This document shows positions 46,615 through 60,624 of a stretch of 64,000 bases of DNA, piece by piece. The notes under the pieces are model-generated. The model saw nothing but the letters and a program-made list of their open reading frames with translations. It was not told where the DNA came from and did no database searches. The translations under genes were made by a program, and so were the position numbers. Position 1 is the stretch's first letter. The number at the start of each line of letters is the position of its first letter. Source of the DNA: Fusobacterium ulcerans (GTDB lineage: Bacteria; Fusobacteriota; Fusobacteriia; Fusobacteriales; Fusobacteriaceae); the NCBI RefSeq assembly GCF_003019675.1, contig NZ_CP028105.1:2806282-2870281 (forward strand). Direction: 5' to 3'.

Positions 46615-46874
46615 TTAAAATAAATAAAGGGAATAAATATTTATTTTAGAAAAAGAAATTTTTTGAAAAATTAAAAGTATGGATATTATTAACAATGAAT
46701 GTAAATTTCATAGAATTGATAATTTTAATTATAATTTATTAAGAAATTTTATTAAAAAATTCTTGAACAATTTTGAAATAAAGGATATAATTGTTCTTGT
46801 AAAAAAACTATACTTATGTAATTTAGATAAAAAGGAGATATATGACATATCTAAAAATATTTTGGGAGGAGTTA

Positions 46875-48332
46875 ATGAAGAAGCATATTTTGCTGAAGAC
46901 CAATATAATACTCTGTTTGATAATATTTGCTGGTTTTTTAGGAATAACATCAACAAGTTATAATACTTATAAAAAGGTATTAGAAGATGATGTTGAAAAT
47001 ATTTCAAAACTTACTTCATCAACTTTATATTCAAAAATAGATGGGAAATTAATAGAACCTCTTTTTGTAGCCCAAACTATGGCTAATGACACTTTTTTGA
47101 AGAGCTGGCTGAAACATGAAAAAGAAAATATAAATAATAATGAATATAAAGAAGTCGTTGAAGAATACTTATATGCTATCAAGGAAAAATATGGATATGA
47201 TTCTGCATTTCTTATTTCTGCTGGAACAAATATTTATTACTTTTATGATGGAATAAATAAGATAGTTAATGAAGAGAATGAACATGATATATGGTATTAT
47301 AATTTTATAAATAAAAATAAGCCATATATGCTGAATATAGATTATGATGAAGTAAACAATGAAACTCTTACAATATTTGTTGATTGTCGAGTAGAAAATA
47401 AAGAAGGAAAACTTTTAGGGGTAGTAGGAGTAGGGATTAAAATGGACCATCTTCAAAAGCTTTTGAAAAGTTATGAAGATGAATTTGATTTAAATGCTTT
47501 TTTGACTGATAAAAATGGTTTGATAAAAGTGGATACAGACTCAGAAAACATAGAAATGGTAAATCTTTTTGAAGATGAAAAACTCTCTAAAGTAAAATGT
47601 GATATTTTTACAGAGCACTCAAATGCCAAGATTCATTGGTATGGAAAAAATAAAATGTGCAGTTGTTTAATTGTGCAGTATATACCTAATCTTGAATGGT
47701 ATTTAGTAGTAGAAAAGAACACTCAAGTTATAAGAGATTCTTTTCATTCTCTTCTTAAAAAAGATATAGCTATATCTTCCTTAATACTTGTATTGCTGAT
47801 GGCATTAAGCAGTTATATTATCAAACGATATAATCATAAGCTTTTTGTACTTTCAAAAATGGATGAACTTACAGGGCTTCCAAATTCAGATGCTTTGGAA
47901 ATGCGTTTTCTATTGGAAGAAAATAAATGGGCAGAAAAAGGAACTATATTATTCTTACTTGATGTAGATGATTTTAAAATTATTAATGACACTAAAGGAC
48001 ATATATTTGGGAATACTATTTTGACTAATATAGGAGAGATAGTTGGTAAAATGACTAAGAGCTATGGAATGAGTGTGAGATGGGGTGGAGATGAATTTGT
48101 TGGAACGATATCTCTTCCACTGGAAGAATCAAGAGTGCTGATAGAAGAAATAATGGAGGAAGTTTATAAAACATGCCTTAAAGATGGATGGAAAGTTACA
48201 TTAAGTATAGGAATAACTGATATTAAAAAAAATAGCAAATTAAATGATTTAATTGAAGAAGCAGATAGAGCTATGTATTTTTCTAAATGTTCTGGAAAAA
48301 ATAAAATAACTTACTATGAAGATATAAAATAA
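46875..48332 (+). CDS. Membrane diguanylate cyclase with Cache sensor (485 aa)
   Basis: The frame is open from 46842, but GGGAGG just upstream supports ATG 46875 (MKKHILLKTNII). A hydrophobic span (about 8-26), an extracytoplasmic dCache-like sensor (YGYDSAFLISAGTNIYYFYDGIN, DCRVENKEGKLLGVVGVGIKM, in pieces), a second span (about 300-320), then a GGDEF domain. VRWGGDEFVGTI near residue 405 is canonical, and FLLDVDDFKIINDTKGHIFGN is intact, so it should make c-di-GMP. No RxxD inhibitory site is evident (MSVR at that place). Stand-alone gene. Confidence 0.9.
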   Translation: MKKHILLKTNIILCLIIFAGFLGITSTSYNTYKKVLEDDVENISKLTSSTLYSKIDGKLIEPLFVAQTMANDTFLKSWLKHEKENINNNEYKEVVEEYLYAIKEKYGYDSAFLISAGTNIYYFYDGINKIVNEENEHDIWYYNFINKNKPYMLNIDYDEVNNETLTIFVDCRVENKEGKLLGVVGVGIKMDHLQKLLKSYEDEFDLNAFLTDKNGLIKVDTDSENIEMVNLFEDEKLSKVKCDIFTEHSNAKIHWYGKNKMCSCLIVQYIPNLEWYLVVEKNTQVIRDSFHSLLKKDIAISSLILVLLMALSSYIIKRYNHKLFVLSKMDELTGLPNSDALEMRFLLEENKWAEKGTILFLLDVDDFKIINDTKGHIFGNTILTNIGEIVGKMTKSYGMSVRWGGDEFVGTISLPLEESRVLIEEIMEEVYKTCLKDGWKVTLSIGITDIKKNSKLNDLIEEADRAMYFSKCSGKNKITYYEDIK

Positions 48333-48351
48333 AAATTATATAAATAATGAT

Positions 48352-48402
48352 AGTACACTAAAAATATTAGAGATAATCTATATTTATGGTGTACTTTTTT
48401 AT
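48352..48402 (+). terminator. Terminator with GTACAC stem
   Basis: AGTACAC (48352-48358) pairs with GTGTACT (48389-48395), then TTTTT. The long loop has inner pairing AAATAT/ATATTT and TAGA/TCTA. Same basal stem as the terminators at 9563 and 53577. Confidence 0.7.
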
Positions 48403-48423
48403 TTTAAAAAGGATATAGAAAAT

Positions 48424-48453
48424 TTGATTAGAATACCCATTATGTGATATAAT
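48424..48453 (+). promoter_or_regulatory. Promoter of the riboswitch/MATE transcript
   Basis: TTGATT (48424-48429), 18 bases, TATAAT (48448-48453) preceded by TGA (extended -10). Transcription should start near 48460, just before the structured leader. Confidence 0.7.
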
Positions 48454-48459
48454 GGCAGA

Positions 48460-48566
48460 AGAATAAGTGGAAACCTGTAACTCTGCCGCCGGGTAGAGCA
48501 TGAATCAGGCGTTCGATTTCACATCTTTAGGCCTTAGTAGATGTGAATAATCGGACGCTTTTTTAT
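48460..48566 (+). ncRNA. Transcription-terminating riboswitch upstream of a MATE pump, candidate guanidine-IV (mepA motif)
   Basis: The leader folds two ways. In the aptamer form GTG-G-AAA (48467-48473) pairs with TTTCAC (48517-48522), CCTG (48474-48477) with CAGG (48506-48509), and CTCTGCC (48481-48487) with GGGTAGAG (48491-48498); loop GCC can also pair with GGC near 48508. In the other form 48509-48526 makes a terminator with 48539-48558, using the same TTTCAC. Ligand binding should therefore prevent termination (ON switch). The guanidine-IV class is known upstream of mepA-type MATE pumps and has this compact design. I could not align it to a consensus, so the class is inferred. Confidence 0.65.
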
Positions 48567-48567
48567 T
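48509..48567 (+). terminator. Conditional terminator of the riboswitch
   Basis: GCGT-T-CGAT-T-TTCACATCT (from 48509) pairs with AGATGTGAA-TA-ATCG-G-ACGC (48539-48558), followed by TTTTTT. The 5' half contains the aptamer P1 3' strand. Confidence 0.8.
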
Positions 48568-48580
48568 TGGAGGTAGAAAA

Positions 48581-49897
48581 ATGGAAAAAAATATTGTACT
48601 TAAATCTTTTGTAAAGTATGTAACGTTAAATGTAATGGGAATGATAGGGCTGTCCTGCTATATTCTTGCAGATACCTATTTTGTTTCCAAAGGAATGGGA
48701 ACAGATGGATTGACAGCTTTAAATTTAGCTATACCCCTTTATACTTTTATTAATGGAACTGGATTAATGATAGGGATAGGTGGAGGAGCTAGATATGCAG
48801 TATTAAAAGCTAAAGGAGAGAATGACAAAGCAGACAGTATTTTTACTTATTCAATAGAAATAGGAATTTTAATTGGTTTGGTTTTTTTAACTGTGGGGAT
48901 ATTTTTAGGAGACAAAATAAGTTATCTGCTAGGAGCTGATAATGTAACTTTTAAAATGACAAGTATATATCTTAAAACAATTATGACTTTTGCTCCTTTT
49001 TTTATATTGAATAATATATTTTTAGCATTTGTAAGAAATGATGGTGATCCCAAACTTTCAATGACTGGAATGCTTCTTGGAAGTTTTTCAAATATAGTAC
49101 TAGACTATGTCTTTATATTTCCTTTAGGAATGGGAATGTTTGGAGCTGCTTTTGCAACTGGATTAGCTCCAGTCATCAGTATAGGAGTTATGTCTGTACA
49201 TTTACTAAAGAAAAGAAATCAGTTTCATTTGAAGAAAGAAAAATTAAATATACATAAAGTTGTTGAATTATGTGGAACAGGAGCTTCTTCATTCATAACT
49301 GAAATATCTTCTGGAATAGTGTTGATTGTATTTAATATAGTAATATTAGGATTGAGAGGAAATACAGGAGTAGCAGCGTATGGTGTAGTGGCTAATCTAG
49401 CTTTAGTGGTGATTGCTATATTTACAGGAGTAGCTCAGGGAGTACAGCCGTTGGTAAGTAAAAGCTATGGAAGTAAGAATAAAGAACAGCTTTACTATAT
49501 TTTAAGATACTCTATGATTCTATCGGTTGTTATTGCTGTATTTGTCTATATTGTGGTATTCTTTTCAGCAGATAAGCTAGTTTCCTTTTTTAACAAAGAA
49601 GGAAATAGAGAACTTTCAGCTTTAGCTGTAAATGGGCTTCATATATATTTTACAGGATTCTTATTTGCAGGAATCAATATAATATCATCTGTATTTTTCA
49701 GCTCAATGGAACATTCAAAGACAGGTTTTATAATTTCTATCACAAGAGGATTTGTAGCTGTAATCCCAGCAGTATGGCTGCTCTCACATATATTTGGAAT
49801 GATAGGAGTGTGGATGTCTTTTCCAATAGCAGAAATGATTGCATTATCATCAGTAATTTACTTCATGAATAACTATAAAAAACTTTTTAGAAATTAA
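48581..49897 (+). CDS. MATE-family multidrug efflux transporter (438 aa)
   Basis: A 12-span cation-coupled exporter of the MATE/MepA group. Two similar halves are visible: VMGMIGLSCYILADTYFVSKGMGTDGLTALNLAIPLYTFINGTG (in pieces) near the N-terminus and GVAAYGVVANLALVVIAIFTGVAQGVQPLVSKSYGS in pieces near residue 260. RNDGDPKLSMTGMLLGSFSNIVLDYVFIFPLGMGMFGAA is the hallmark internal loop (in pieces). TTGGAGG precedes the ATG. Expression is controlled by the riboswitch directly upstream, so the physiological substrate may be the riboswitch ligand (guanidine-like cation, inferred). Confidence 0.93.
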   Translation: MEKNIVLKSFVKYVTLNVMGMIGLSCYILADTYFVSKGMGTDGLTALNLAIPLYTFINGTGLMIGIGGGARYAVLKAKGENDKADSIFTYSIEIGILIGLVFLTVGIFLGDKISYLLGADNVTFKMTSIYLKTIMTFAPFFILNNIFLAFVRNDGDPKLSMTGMLLGSFSNIVLDYVFIFPLGMGMFGAAFATGLAPVISIGVMSVHLLKKRNQFHLKKEKLNIHKVVELCGTGASSFITEISSGIVLIVFNIVILGLRGNTGVAAYGVVANLALVVIAIFTGVAQGVQPLVSKSYGSKNKEQLYYILRYSMILSVVIAVFVYIVVFFSADKLVSFFNKEGNRELSALAVNGLHIYFTGFLFAGINIISSVFFSSMEHSKTGFIISITRGFVAVIPAVWLLSHIFGMIGVWMSFPIAEMIALSSVIYFMNNYKKLFRN

Positions 49898-49903
49898 AAT
49901 ATC

Positions 49904-49942
49904 AAGGACAGTATGCTATCTATAAAGCAGCTGTCTTTTTTA
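49904..49942 (+). terminator. Terminator after the MATE gene
   Basis: GACAG (49907-49911) plus inner TGCT pair with AGCA plus CTGTC (49931-49935), followed by TTTTTT. Confidence 0.65.
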
Positions 49943-49953
49943 TAAAAAAACTA

Positions 49954-59163: not shown

Positions 59164-60624
59164 ATGTTCAGAAGTGGGCTTCTAGTAATGATAATAACAA
59201 TGGTGAGCAGAGTGCTTGGACTTGTAAGAGCAACTATTATAGCTTACTATTTTGGGGCTTCTGGGGCAACAGATGCCTACTTTAGTGCTTTTAAAATAAG
59301 TAATTTCTTTAGACAATTACTGGGAGAGGGAGCTTTGGGAAGCTCATTCATCCCTTTATATAATGAGAAAATAGAGATAGAAGGGGAAGAAAAAGGAAAA
59401 GAATTCATATATTCTATATTGAATCTTATTTTTGTTTTCAGTACCATTGTAACTCTTTTAATGATAATATTTTCACAGGATATAATAAACCTCATTGTAA
59501 ATGGGTTTCCAACAGAAACAAAAATACTAGCATCACAACTTTTAAAAATAATGTCAGTGTACTTTATATTTATAAGTCTTTCTGGAATGATATGTGCAAT
59601 GCTGAATAACTTTAAGCAGTTTGCTATACCAGCTTCAACTTCAATATTTTTTAATCTTGCTATAATTCTGGCTTCAATGGGATTCAGCAAGACTTTTGGT
59701 ATATCAGCTTTAGCATATGGAGTGGTTTTAGGAGGGGCATTTCAGCTTTTAATAGTACTTCCATCATTCTTTAAAATAGTAAAAGGATATTCTTTTAAAA
59801 TAAATTGGAAAGATCCATATCTGAAAAAAATATTTATACTTATGTGTCCTATGCTGGTAGGAATAGTTGCCAGACAGGTAAATACAATAGTAGATCAGGT
59901 ATTTGCTTCATATCTGCAAGAGGGGGGAGTTACTGCTCTTGAGAATGCAACAAGATTATATCTGCTTCCAGTGGGAGTATTTGGAGTATCTATATCTACA
60001 GTCATATTCCCTGTGCTGTCAAAGGCAGTAGCAAGAAATGATTTAAAGACAGCAGAAAATAATATTGTTAAAGGATTAAATATACTTCTTTTCCTTATTA
60101 TTCCATCAACAGCAGTGTTGACATTTTATTCAACTGATGTAATCAGATTGACTCTTTCTTATGGAAAGTTTGGAGAAGAAGCTGTAAAAGTTACATCAGA
60201 AGCTCTCTTATATTATTCACTTGGATTATATTTCTATACAGCAATATATTTAATGACAAGAGCATTTTACAGTGTAAAGAATAGTTCTTATCCTGTGAGA
60301 TTCTCTATTGTTTCTATTATTATAAACATAGTGCTTAACTTTGCTTTGATAAAGCCAATGGCATACAGAGGACTTGCACTTTCTACATCTATAGCTTCAG
60401 GAGTAAATTTTGTCCTTCTTGTATATGTATTCAGAAAAAAATATATGGAGTTTCCATTAAAAAGATCACTTATATTCTTTGGAAAGGTAATACTCACTAC
60501 AGCAGTTGCTTTAGGAGCAAGTTATTATGTACATAATACTATAATTAAATTAGTTGTATTTTCAGCAGTATATATGGTATTCTGGGCGAAGTCTCTTATA
60601 AAAAATAAAATGGAAGTGTTTTAA
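59164..60624 (+). CDS. murJ: Lipid II flippase MurJ (486 aa)
   Basis: A 14-span MOP-superfamily flippase for peptidoglycan lipid II. MVSRVLGLVRATIIAYYFGASGATDAYFSAFKISNFFRQLLGEGALGSSFIPLYNE (in pieces) carries the conserved Arg and the FxxLxxEGA motif. RQVNTIVDQVFASYLQEGGVTAL and LYLLPVGVFGVSISTVIFPVLSK in pieces also match. GAGGAG precedes the ATG. The stop lies 3 bases before the DNA methyltransferase start, which probably shares the transcript. Confidence 0.95.
   Translation: MFRSGLLVMIITMVSRVLGLVRATIIAYYFGASGATDAYFSAFKISNFFRQLLGEGALGSSFIPLYNEKIEIEGEEKGKEFIYSILNLIFVFSTIVTLLMIIFSQDIINLIVNGFPTETKILASQLLKIMSVYFIFISLSGMICAMLNNFKQFAIPASTSIFFNLAIILASMGFSKTFGISALAYGVVLGGAFQLLIVLPSFFKIVKGYSFKINWKDPYLKKIFILMCPMLVGIVARQVNTIVDQVFASYLQEGGVTALENATRLYLLPVGVFGVSISTVIFPVLSKAVARNDLKTAENNIVKGLNILLFLIIPSTAVLTFYSTDVIRLTLSYGKFGEEAVKVTSEALLYYSLGLYFYTAIYLMTRAFYSVKNSSYPVRFSIVSIIINIVLNFALIKPMAYRGLALSTSIASGVNFVLLVYVFRKKYMEFPLKRSLIFFGKVILTTAVALGASYYVHNTIIKLVVFSAVYMVFWAKSLIKNKMEVF

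Follow-up and report, generated by a model that had tools for sequence, protein, structure and literature searches.

Earlier publications already describe the guanidine-IV class of riboswitches, its occurrence in Fusobacteria and its association with MATE genes. As far as the published text goes, MATE and PnuC are given as transporters linked to these RNAs and Fusobacteria as one of the phyla that carry them; in the L. lactis RNA the residues G62, G66, U67 and G72 are given, the last three 97% conserved and G62 90%, a G62C change weakens switching without abolishing it, and the 147-nt template runs through the first 31 nt of sugE (PMC7736828). For the C. botulinum RNA, the text describes the kissing pairs A29-U72 and C30-G71, the rescue of U72C by A29G, a loss with G77C, and the finding that shortening the linker makes kissing and the complete terminator mutually exclusive; kissing is not restored in the C30G/G71C double mutant, so more than pairing is needed (PMC11611296). 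B3/4 proteins (CtdA) are described as canavanyl-tRNA editing enzymes under the control of guanidine-I or guanidine-IV RNAs (PMC11477304), and a D2 hairpin on the terminator is stated to occur always in transaminase-linked members of the Gd4v variant and never in sugE-linked guanidine-IV (PMC9788692). The locus analyzed in this work was not itself found in the main texts; the published members are listed in their supplements.

The window, i.e. the whole stretch of 64,000 nucleotides that was analyzed, belongs to Fusobacterium ulcerans, whose genome is a single contig of 3.54 Mb. Between a likely promoter and a MATE family transporter gene it holds a leader of about 105 nt, which we identify, with a probability of roughly 93%, as a guanidine-IV (mepA / GGAM-1 class) transcriptional ON riboswitch controlling the MATE efflux pump. 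The initial annotation had proposed a candidate guanidine-IV ON riboswitch for this pump, and sequence, covariation and gene context agree with it in class, target and ON logic. The match to the class was made through numbered residues, constructs and gene lists taken from published text. The features of the locus are as follows.

48352-48401, + strand: probable terminator (AGTACAC...GTGTACT, then a T-run) of the GGDEF gene lying upstream, found by eye on the sequence.
48424-48453, + strand: sigma-70-type promoter TTGATT-N18-TATAAT with TG ahead of the -10, 10 of 12 consensus matches.
48460-48564, + strand: guanidine-IV-type riboswitch RNA, from the predicted start site to the end of the U-run, as judged from sequence models, with the 5' end placed from the promoter.
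48481-48498, + strand: hairpin P1, with loop L1 GCCG at 48488-48491, from folding and comparative structure.
48499-48508, + strand: linker from P1 to the complete terminator stem, from sequence and structure.
48509-48558, + strand: intrinsic terminator stem P2, with a lower part of 10 pairs (48509-48518/48549-48558) and an upper part of 8 pairs (48519-48526/48539-48546).
48527-48538, + strand: terminator loop L2 UUAGGCCUUAGU, 12 nt, of which GGC 48530-48532 kisses L1, from the comparative alignment.
48559-48564, + strand: terminator U-run of six U, from folding.
48569-48573, + strand: ribosome-binding site GGAGG, from sequence.
48581-49897, + strand: gene of the MATE family transporter (438 aa), the regulated gene, by protein family match.

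The RNA appears to open its own transcription unit, given the probable terminator and the promoter-like site ahead of the leader. The terminator at 48352-48401, absent from the output of the consensus scan, would probably set the GGDEF unit apart from the MATE unit; the upstream neighbor is a dCache-GGDEF diguanylate cyclase gene (46842-48332), with no evident link to the switch. The promoter scan over 301 bases found one site against a mean of 1.9 in shuffled sequences, so that a chance match is expected and the site is not significant alone. It is kept in all four same-genus copies of the RNA, a promoter score of at least 10 was obtained upstream of P1 in 78 of 109 homologous RNAs, and the mean score over the homologous RNAs was 10.1 versus 8.1 with shuffled letters. 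From the position of this promoter, transcription would start at about 48460. The start at 48424 assigned to the element in the initial annotation falls on the opening letter of the -35 box; the RNA itself would span about 48460-48564, with its first hairpin at 48481-48498. A hairpin, CATTATGTGATATAATG, taken as an RNA stem in a first fold, was rejected, as its letters make up the spacer and the -10 box of the likely promoter. Just 3' of the MATE gene, a hairpin GGACAG...CTGTC followed by a T-run (49905-49950) was seen by eye, and the pump is thus probably transcribed alone.

The initial annotation was confirmed in that the MATE gene is immediately preceded by a compact, structured leader containing an intrinsic terminator. 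None of 200 dinucleotide shuffles folds as well as the stretch 48424-48566, which reaches -43.3 kcal/mol where the shuffles average -29.5 kcal/mol (z -4.05). The terminator contributes the main share of the folding energy, and its lower stem alone is worth about 14 kcal/mol. The consensus scan, limited to loops of 3-8 bases, reported no terminator at the leader because the loop of 12 exceeds that limit. The linker between P1 and P2 measures 10 nt with the whole stem and 20 nt with the upper stem alone. GCC 48488-48490 in L1 is the 5' partner of the kissing helix, which in the window consists of three pairs, L1 GCC with L2 GGC.

This kissing helix is retained among the relatives of the RNA. In 65 RNAs (alignment A7, 67 rows minus two antisense matches) the first kissing pair is A-U in 30, G-C in 27 and G-U in 7, with one gap in a misaligned row, and the second and third pairs are C-G in all 64 RNAs with letters there. 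A second set of 53 RNAs gave A-U 26, G-C 21, C-G 5, G-U 1 and no mismatches; these counts are not independent events, since the two sets overlap and their sequences are related. A further alignment of 63 RNAs (A8), from which the two near-identical sources behind the antisense matches were left out, was fitted to P1 and P2 with the kissing pairs excluded from the fit. Over its 27-pair structure, kissing pairs included, 93.3% of positions were paired versus 66.0% after shuffling and 33-42% with slid partners, and none of 500 shuffles reached the observed value. At shorter range, the four same-genus copies show one terminator pair changed on both sides and one broken in one copy, and their covariation alone is not significant (124 of 500 shuffles reach it); once two distant sequences are included, both partners vary in 14 of 24 pairs, and the observed pairing is matched by 0 of 500 shuffles.

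The distribution of the RNA was followed with three successive models. Of 12 genomes of the same genus that were searched, 4, among them the host genome, have a full copy (90-95% identity), and the model built from these four sequences (R1) was searched against 98 Fusobacteriota genomes. It gave two distant matches, one upstream of a DUF6485 gene (G027, E 3.8e-10) and one in Sebaldella (G092, E 1.6e-8) ahead of a SugE-like SMR gene, which scores highest in NCBIfam against SugE, with 90 bits where the cut-off is 126. All remaining R1 matches in these genomes had E-values of 0.006 or worse; weak ones were seen in G088, G056 and G034, and those in G070 and G075 were discarded as lying inside unrelated ORFs. 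The second model (R2, six sequences) was run on the best 80 of 568 loci, chosen by similarity to the G092 SMR protein, and in 61 of these best 80 of 568 it found the RNA (E<=0.062) on the sense strand upstream of SugE/Gdx-type genes; the locus at E 0.062 (L060) is within this count and in neither alignment. Elsewhere in those loci (again the best 80 of 568) it gave four matches only, with E 0.95-9. The 19 RNA-less loci of the best 80 of 568 carried guanidine-I (10) or guanidine-II (1) RNAs in the same place, or neither (8). No RNA was found with R2 at an Enterococcus plasmid SMR gene (70% identity), a Paraclostridium SMR gene or a Cytobacillus plasmid SMR gene.

The third model (R3, 63 sequences) added three further copies in Fusobacteriota, one before a DUF6485 gene (G003) and two before genes with a B3/4 domain (one in G031, the other being the second copy of G002); in the host genome, at E<=0.1, it found the window copy of the RNA only. 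The RNA is present in 45 of 206 genomes of the Clostridium rhizosphaerae family and, as 12 copies, in 11 of 18 genomes of the genus Lactococcus, and was found in none of four genomes of the genus of G098. Several of these occurrences can be recorded in their own right. Phascolarctobacterium sp. ET69 (genome G102, of L099) holds two copies, L140 and L141, about 6 kb apart. The same-genus genome G002 has both a MATE copy and a B3/4 copy, and RNAs stand before B3/4-domain genes in two Fusobacteriota genomes (L154:768-1475, L146:1618-2319). DUF6485 is a small Cys-rich protein behind the RNA in the two genomes G027 and G003 (L036:1501-1595, L145:1501-1600); a literature search on the word DUF6485 found no paper, and it may be an unreported guanidine-linked protein.

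The downstream genes were compared over 48 proteins, made up of 47 loci with a downstream ORF out of 49, plus the window (the picks for L171 and L183 are among those more than 100 nt away, and that for L188 is shortened). They comprise MatE 14, window included, SMR 12, GNAT 9, PnuC-type 3, B3/4 2 and DUF6485 1, the rest being others. The MATE, PnuC and GNAT contexts all come from the Clostridium family, except the window and one Enterococcus MATE, and the SMR contexts from Lactococcus, Enterococcus and Phascolarctobacterium. SugE, MATE, PnuC and GNAT, the gene contexts of guanidine-IV, are thus all found among the relatives, the window contributing a MATE gene.

The agreement with guanidine-IV extends to the architecture and to single residues. 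The window RNA has two hairpins, the second serving as an intrinsic terminator immediately before the gene, and an L1-L2 kissing helix. G48531 corresponds to L. lactis G66 and C. botulinum G71, and all 65 of 65 RNAs in the alignment have G there; G48537, the equivalent of L. lactis G72 and C. botulinum G77, is G in 61 of 65 by column, or 56 of 65 ungapped. In validated members of the class, both of these G residues are essential. At the position of L. lactis U67 and C. botulinum U72 the window has C48532, which pairs with G48488; the pair is kept with its letter changed, and is the very form (A29G/U72C) that is rescued in C. botulinum. Over the 65 RNAs this column holds C 28 and U 37, where the published text gives a U conserved at 97% (PMC7736828). 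A G was not found at the equivalent of L. lactis 62, the window having U at both -4 and -5, and its affinity could be lower as a consequence; this column also varies in gdx-linked members, with G at -5 in 23 of 65. Among the 12 Lactococcus RNAs, six have G62, G66, U67 and G72 in the published spacing; UUAGGCC and a loop of 11 nt occur in five, and AAGU in one. The 31st base of the gene falls on position 147 in four of the six matching RNAs, as in the published construct, and on 148 and 151 in the other two. By this likeness, the window RNA would bind guanidine.

The initial annotation had called for a check with Rfam covariance models, counting their failure to match as a refutation. They gave no match in the window at the gathering score and, at E<=10 within 48100-48800, only five unrelated weak ones. 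No Rfam 15 riboswitch family matched in 20 loci that carry the RNA either, which indicates that Rfam 15 apparently lacks guanidine-IV; this would explain the failure at the window, and the refuting clause does not apply.

How the switch would work can be proposed from the published class. If no ligand is bound, the terminator would be completed and transcription would end at the U-run. Guanidinium would bind to the kissing L1 and L2 at a stage when the terminator stem is formed in its upper part only; the short linker would then block the lower ten pairs, and RNA polymerase would continue into the gene of the pump, which presumably exports guanidinium. As the lower stem adds about 14 kcal/mol, the ligand would have to act before it forms.

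A classical antiterminator ON switch, in which ligand binding would make GUGGAA of the leader pair with UUUCAC of the terminator, is an alternative that we consider very improbable. It is close to the design first annotated, with TTTCAC shared between an aptamer P1 stem and the terminator. TTTCAC (48517-48522) is indeed part of the 5' half of the terminator stem; its sharing with an aptamer stem was not borne out, as the pairing is at chance level. One candidate partner, GTGA at 48444-48447, falls within the likely promoter and hence upstream of the proposed start and outside the RNA; the other, GUGGAA at 48467-48472, is within the RNA. Pairing of the latter is possible in the window and near relatives, a related helix occurs in folds of intermediate length, and single RNAs show strong leader pairing (e.g. 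L179, -13.4 versus -4.5 kcal/mol shuffled). In the window, however, 252 of 1000 shuffled leaders pair equally well, and over 95 RNAs (from 116 alignment rows, after dropping duplicates and rows without L2 by pattern) a terminator pairs with its own leader no more strongly, on average, than with a shuffled or swapped one (means of -4.37, -4.23 and -4.31 kcal/mol, respectively); the top 5% is reached by 9 of 95 leaders in the comparison with shuffles and by 4 of 95 in that with swaps. The published loop-loop kissing mechanism fits in place of the shared-strand mechanism.

We regard it as very improbable that the RNA belongs to the guanidine-IV variant Gd4v and would thus sense something other than guanidine. 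Gut bacteria are among the relatives of the host, which counts in favor of Gd4v. So does the architecture, since Gd4v is described with the same two hairpins, kissing loops and terminator and occurs before MATE genes too (PMC9788692). Against it, the 12-nt L2 of the window holds no extra terminator hairpin; G48537, at +6, stands at what we infer to be the D1 position, where Gd4v is described as having a base other than G; and Gd4v is stated never to occur before sugE, where RNAs of the window type do occur (PMC9788692). The same model also found five RNAs of the Clostridium family (L183, L186, L189, L193 and L196, match from 1501; 5 of the 53 RNAs) that the window RNA does not resemble. They have an apparent extra hairpin and a longer L2, such as UUAGGGCCUUUUUAAGG, have no G at +6 and kiss by C-G, the third covarying pair type; four stand before GNAT genes and one lies 139 nt before a PLP-enzyme ORF. 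These are probably the orphan Gd4v motif.

Two further explanations are hardly credible: an intrinsic terminator or attenuator alone, with no aptamer, would fit a folding energy dominated by the terminator and would not need both hairpin loops to be conserved across phyla and to covary together, as they do; and for the other riboswitch classes initially suggested, to whose aptamers CCGCCGGG bears a superficial likeness, ZTP and guanidine-I, -II and -III gave no window match at the gathering score and none at E<=10 in 48100-48800, nor was guanidine-I found in the host genome.

With the RNA read as guanidine-IV, the window MATE would be an exporter of guanidinium. It shares 44-57% identity with 13 RNA-linked MATEs of other genomes and, among the matches listed, at most 34% with 19 other MATEs of the host genome. 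The 14 RNA-linked MATEs cluster together in a 32-row tree (100/99); as the tree is drawn without the RNA-less MATEs of other genomes, this grouping does not establish the whole clade as RNA-linked. The duplicate of the window gene, the broken fragment L223 and L203, an ORF in the wrong frame without a match to any other MATE, were left out. The host genome has 50 matches to PF01554 (30 given as loci), corresponding to some two dozen MATE proteins. One host MATE, L223, has an in-frame TGA, and a weak second MatE match lies in the window at 59848-60342 (G000:C1:2866129-2866623, E 1.3e-9), perhaps a flippase-like transporter. A search of the host genome for SMR genes found none; 8 of 14 control genomes were positive. 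We see an even chance that the guanidine-IV RNA marks a clade of MATEs (the window and 13 others, from the Clostridium family and Enterococcus) as dedicated guanidinium exporters, replacing Gdx in this SMR-less Fusobacteriota genome, and that DUF6485, twice behind the RNA in the phylum, is a further guanidine-response protein.

A ligand is thereby suggested for one among some two dozen MATE pumps of the host, and the speculation, found in the published text, that riboswitch-linked MATE proteins export guanidine (PMC7736828) becomes testable in an organism without SMR/Gdx. The alignment is a usable model for a class apparently missing in Rfam 15, and its matches can be sorted by eye into guanidine-IV and Gd4v-like RNAs.

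Among the known systems, guanidine-I and guanidine-II are guanidine ON switches with folds that differ from the guanidine-IV type. In 11 of the 19 RNA-less loci (best 80 of 568), a guanidine-I (ykkC, RF00442) or guanidine-II (RF01068) RNA stands ahead of the gdx-type gene where the other loci have the RNA of the window type; the models of these two classes gave no match to the window. Gd4v, as far as described, resembles the window RNA in its two-hairpin kissing architecture, its terminator and the presence of MATE among its genes, and differs in having an extra terminator hairpin and no D1 G, whereas the window has no such hairpin and a G at the inferred D1 (PMC9788692). From the L. lactis sugE and C. 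botulinum mepA examples of guanidine-IV, as published, the window RNA differs in a kissing pair that is G-C instead of A-U, in a U instead of G at the G62 position, and in its MATE target in a genome without SMR genes. With the same examples it shares two hairpins, the 3' one a terminator, three kissing pairs, GG before the kissing Y of L2 and G at +6, a transcriptional ON logic that in the window would follow from the class, and, among its relatives, the MATE, SugE, PnuC, GNAT and B3/4 contexts (PMC7736828, PMC11611296).
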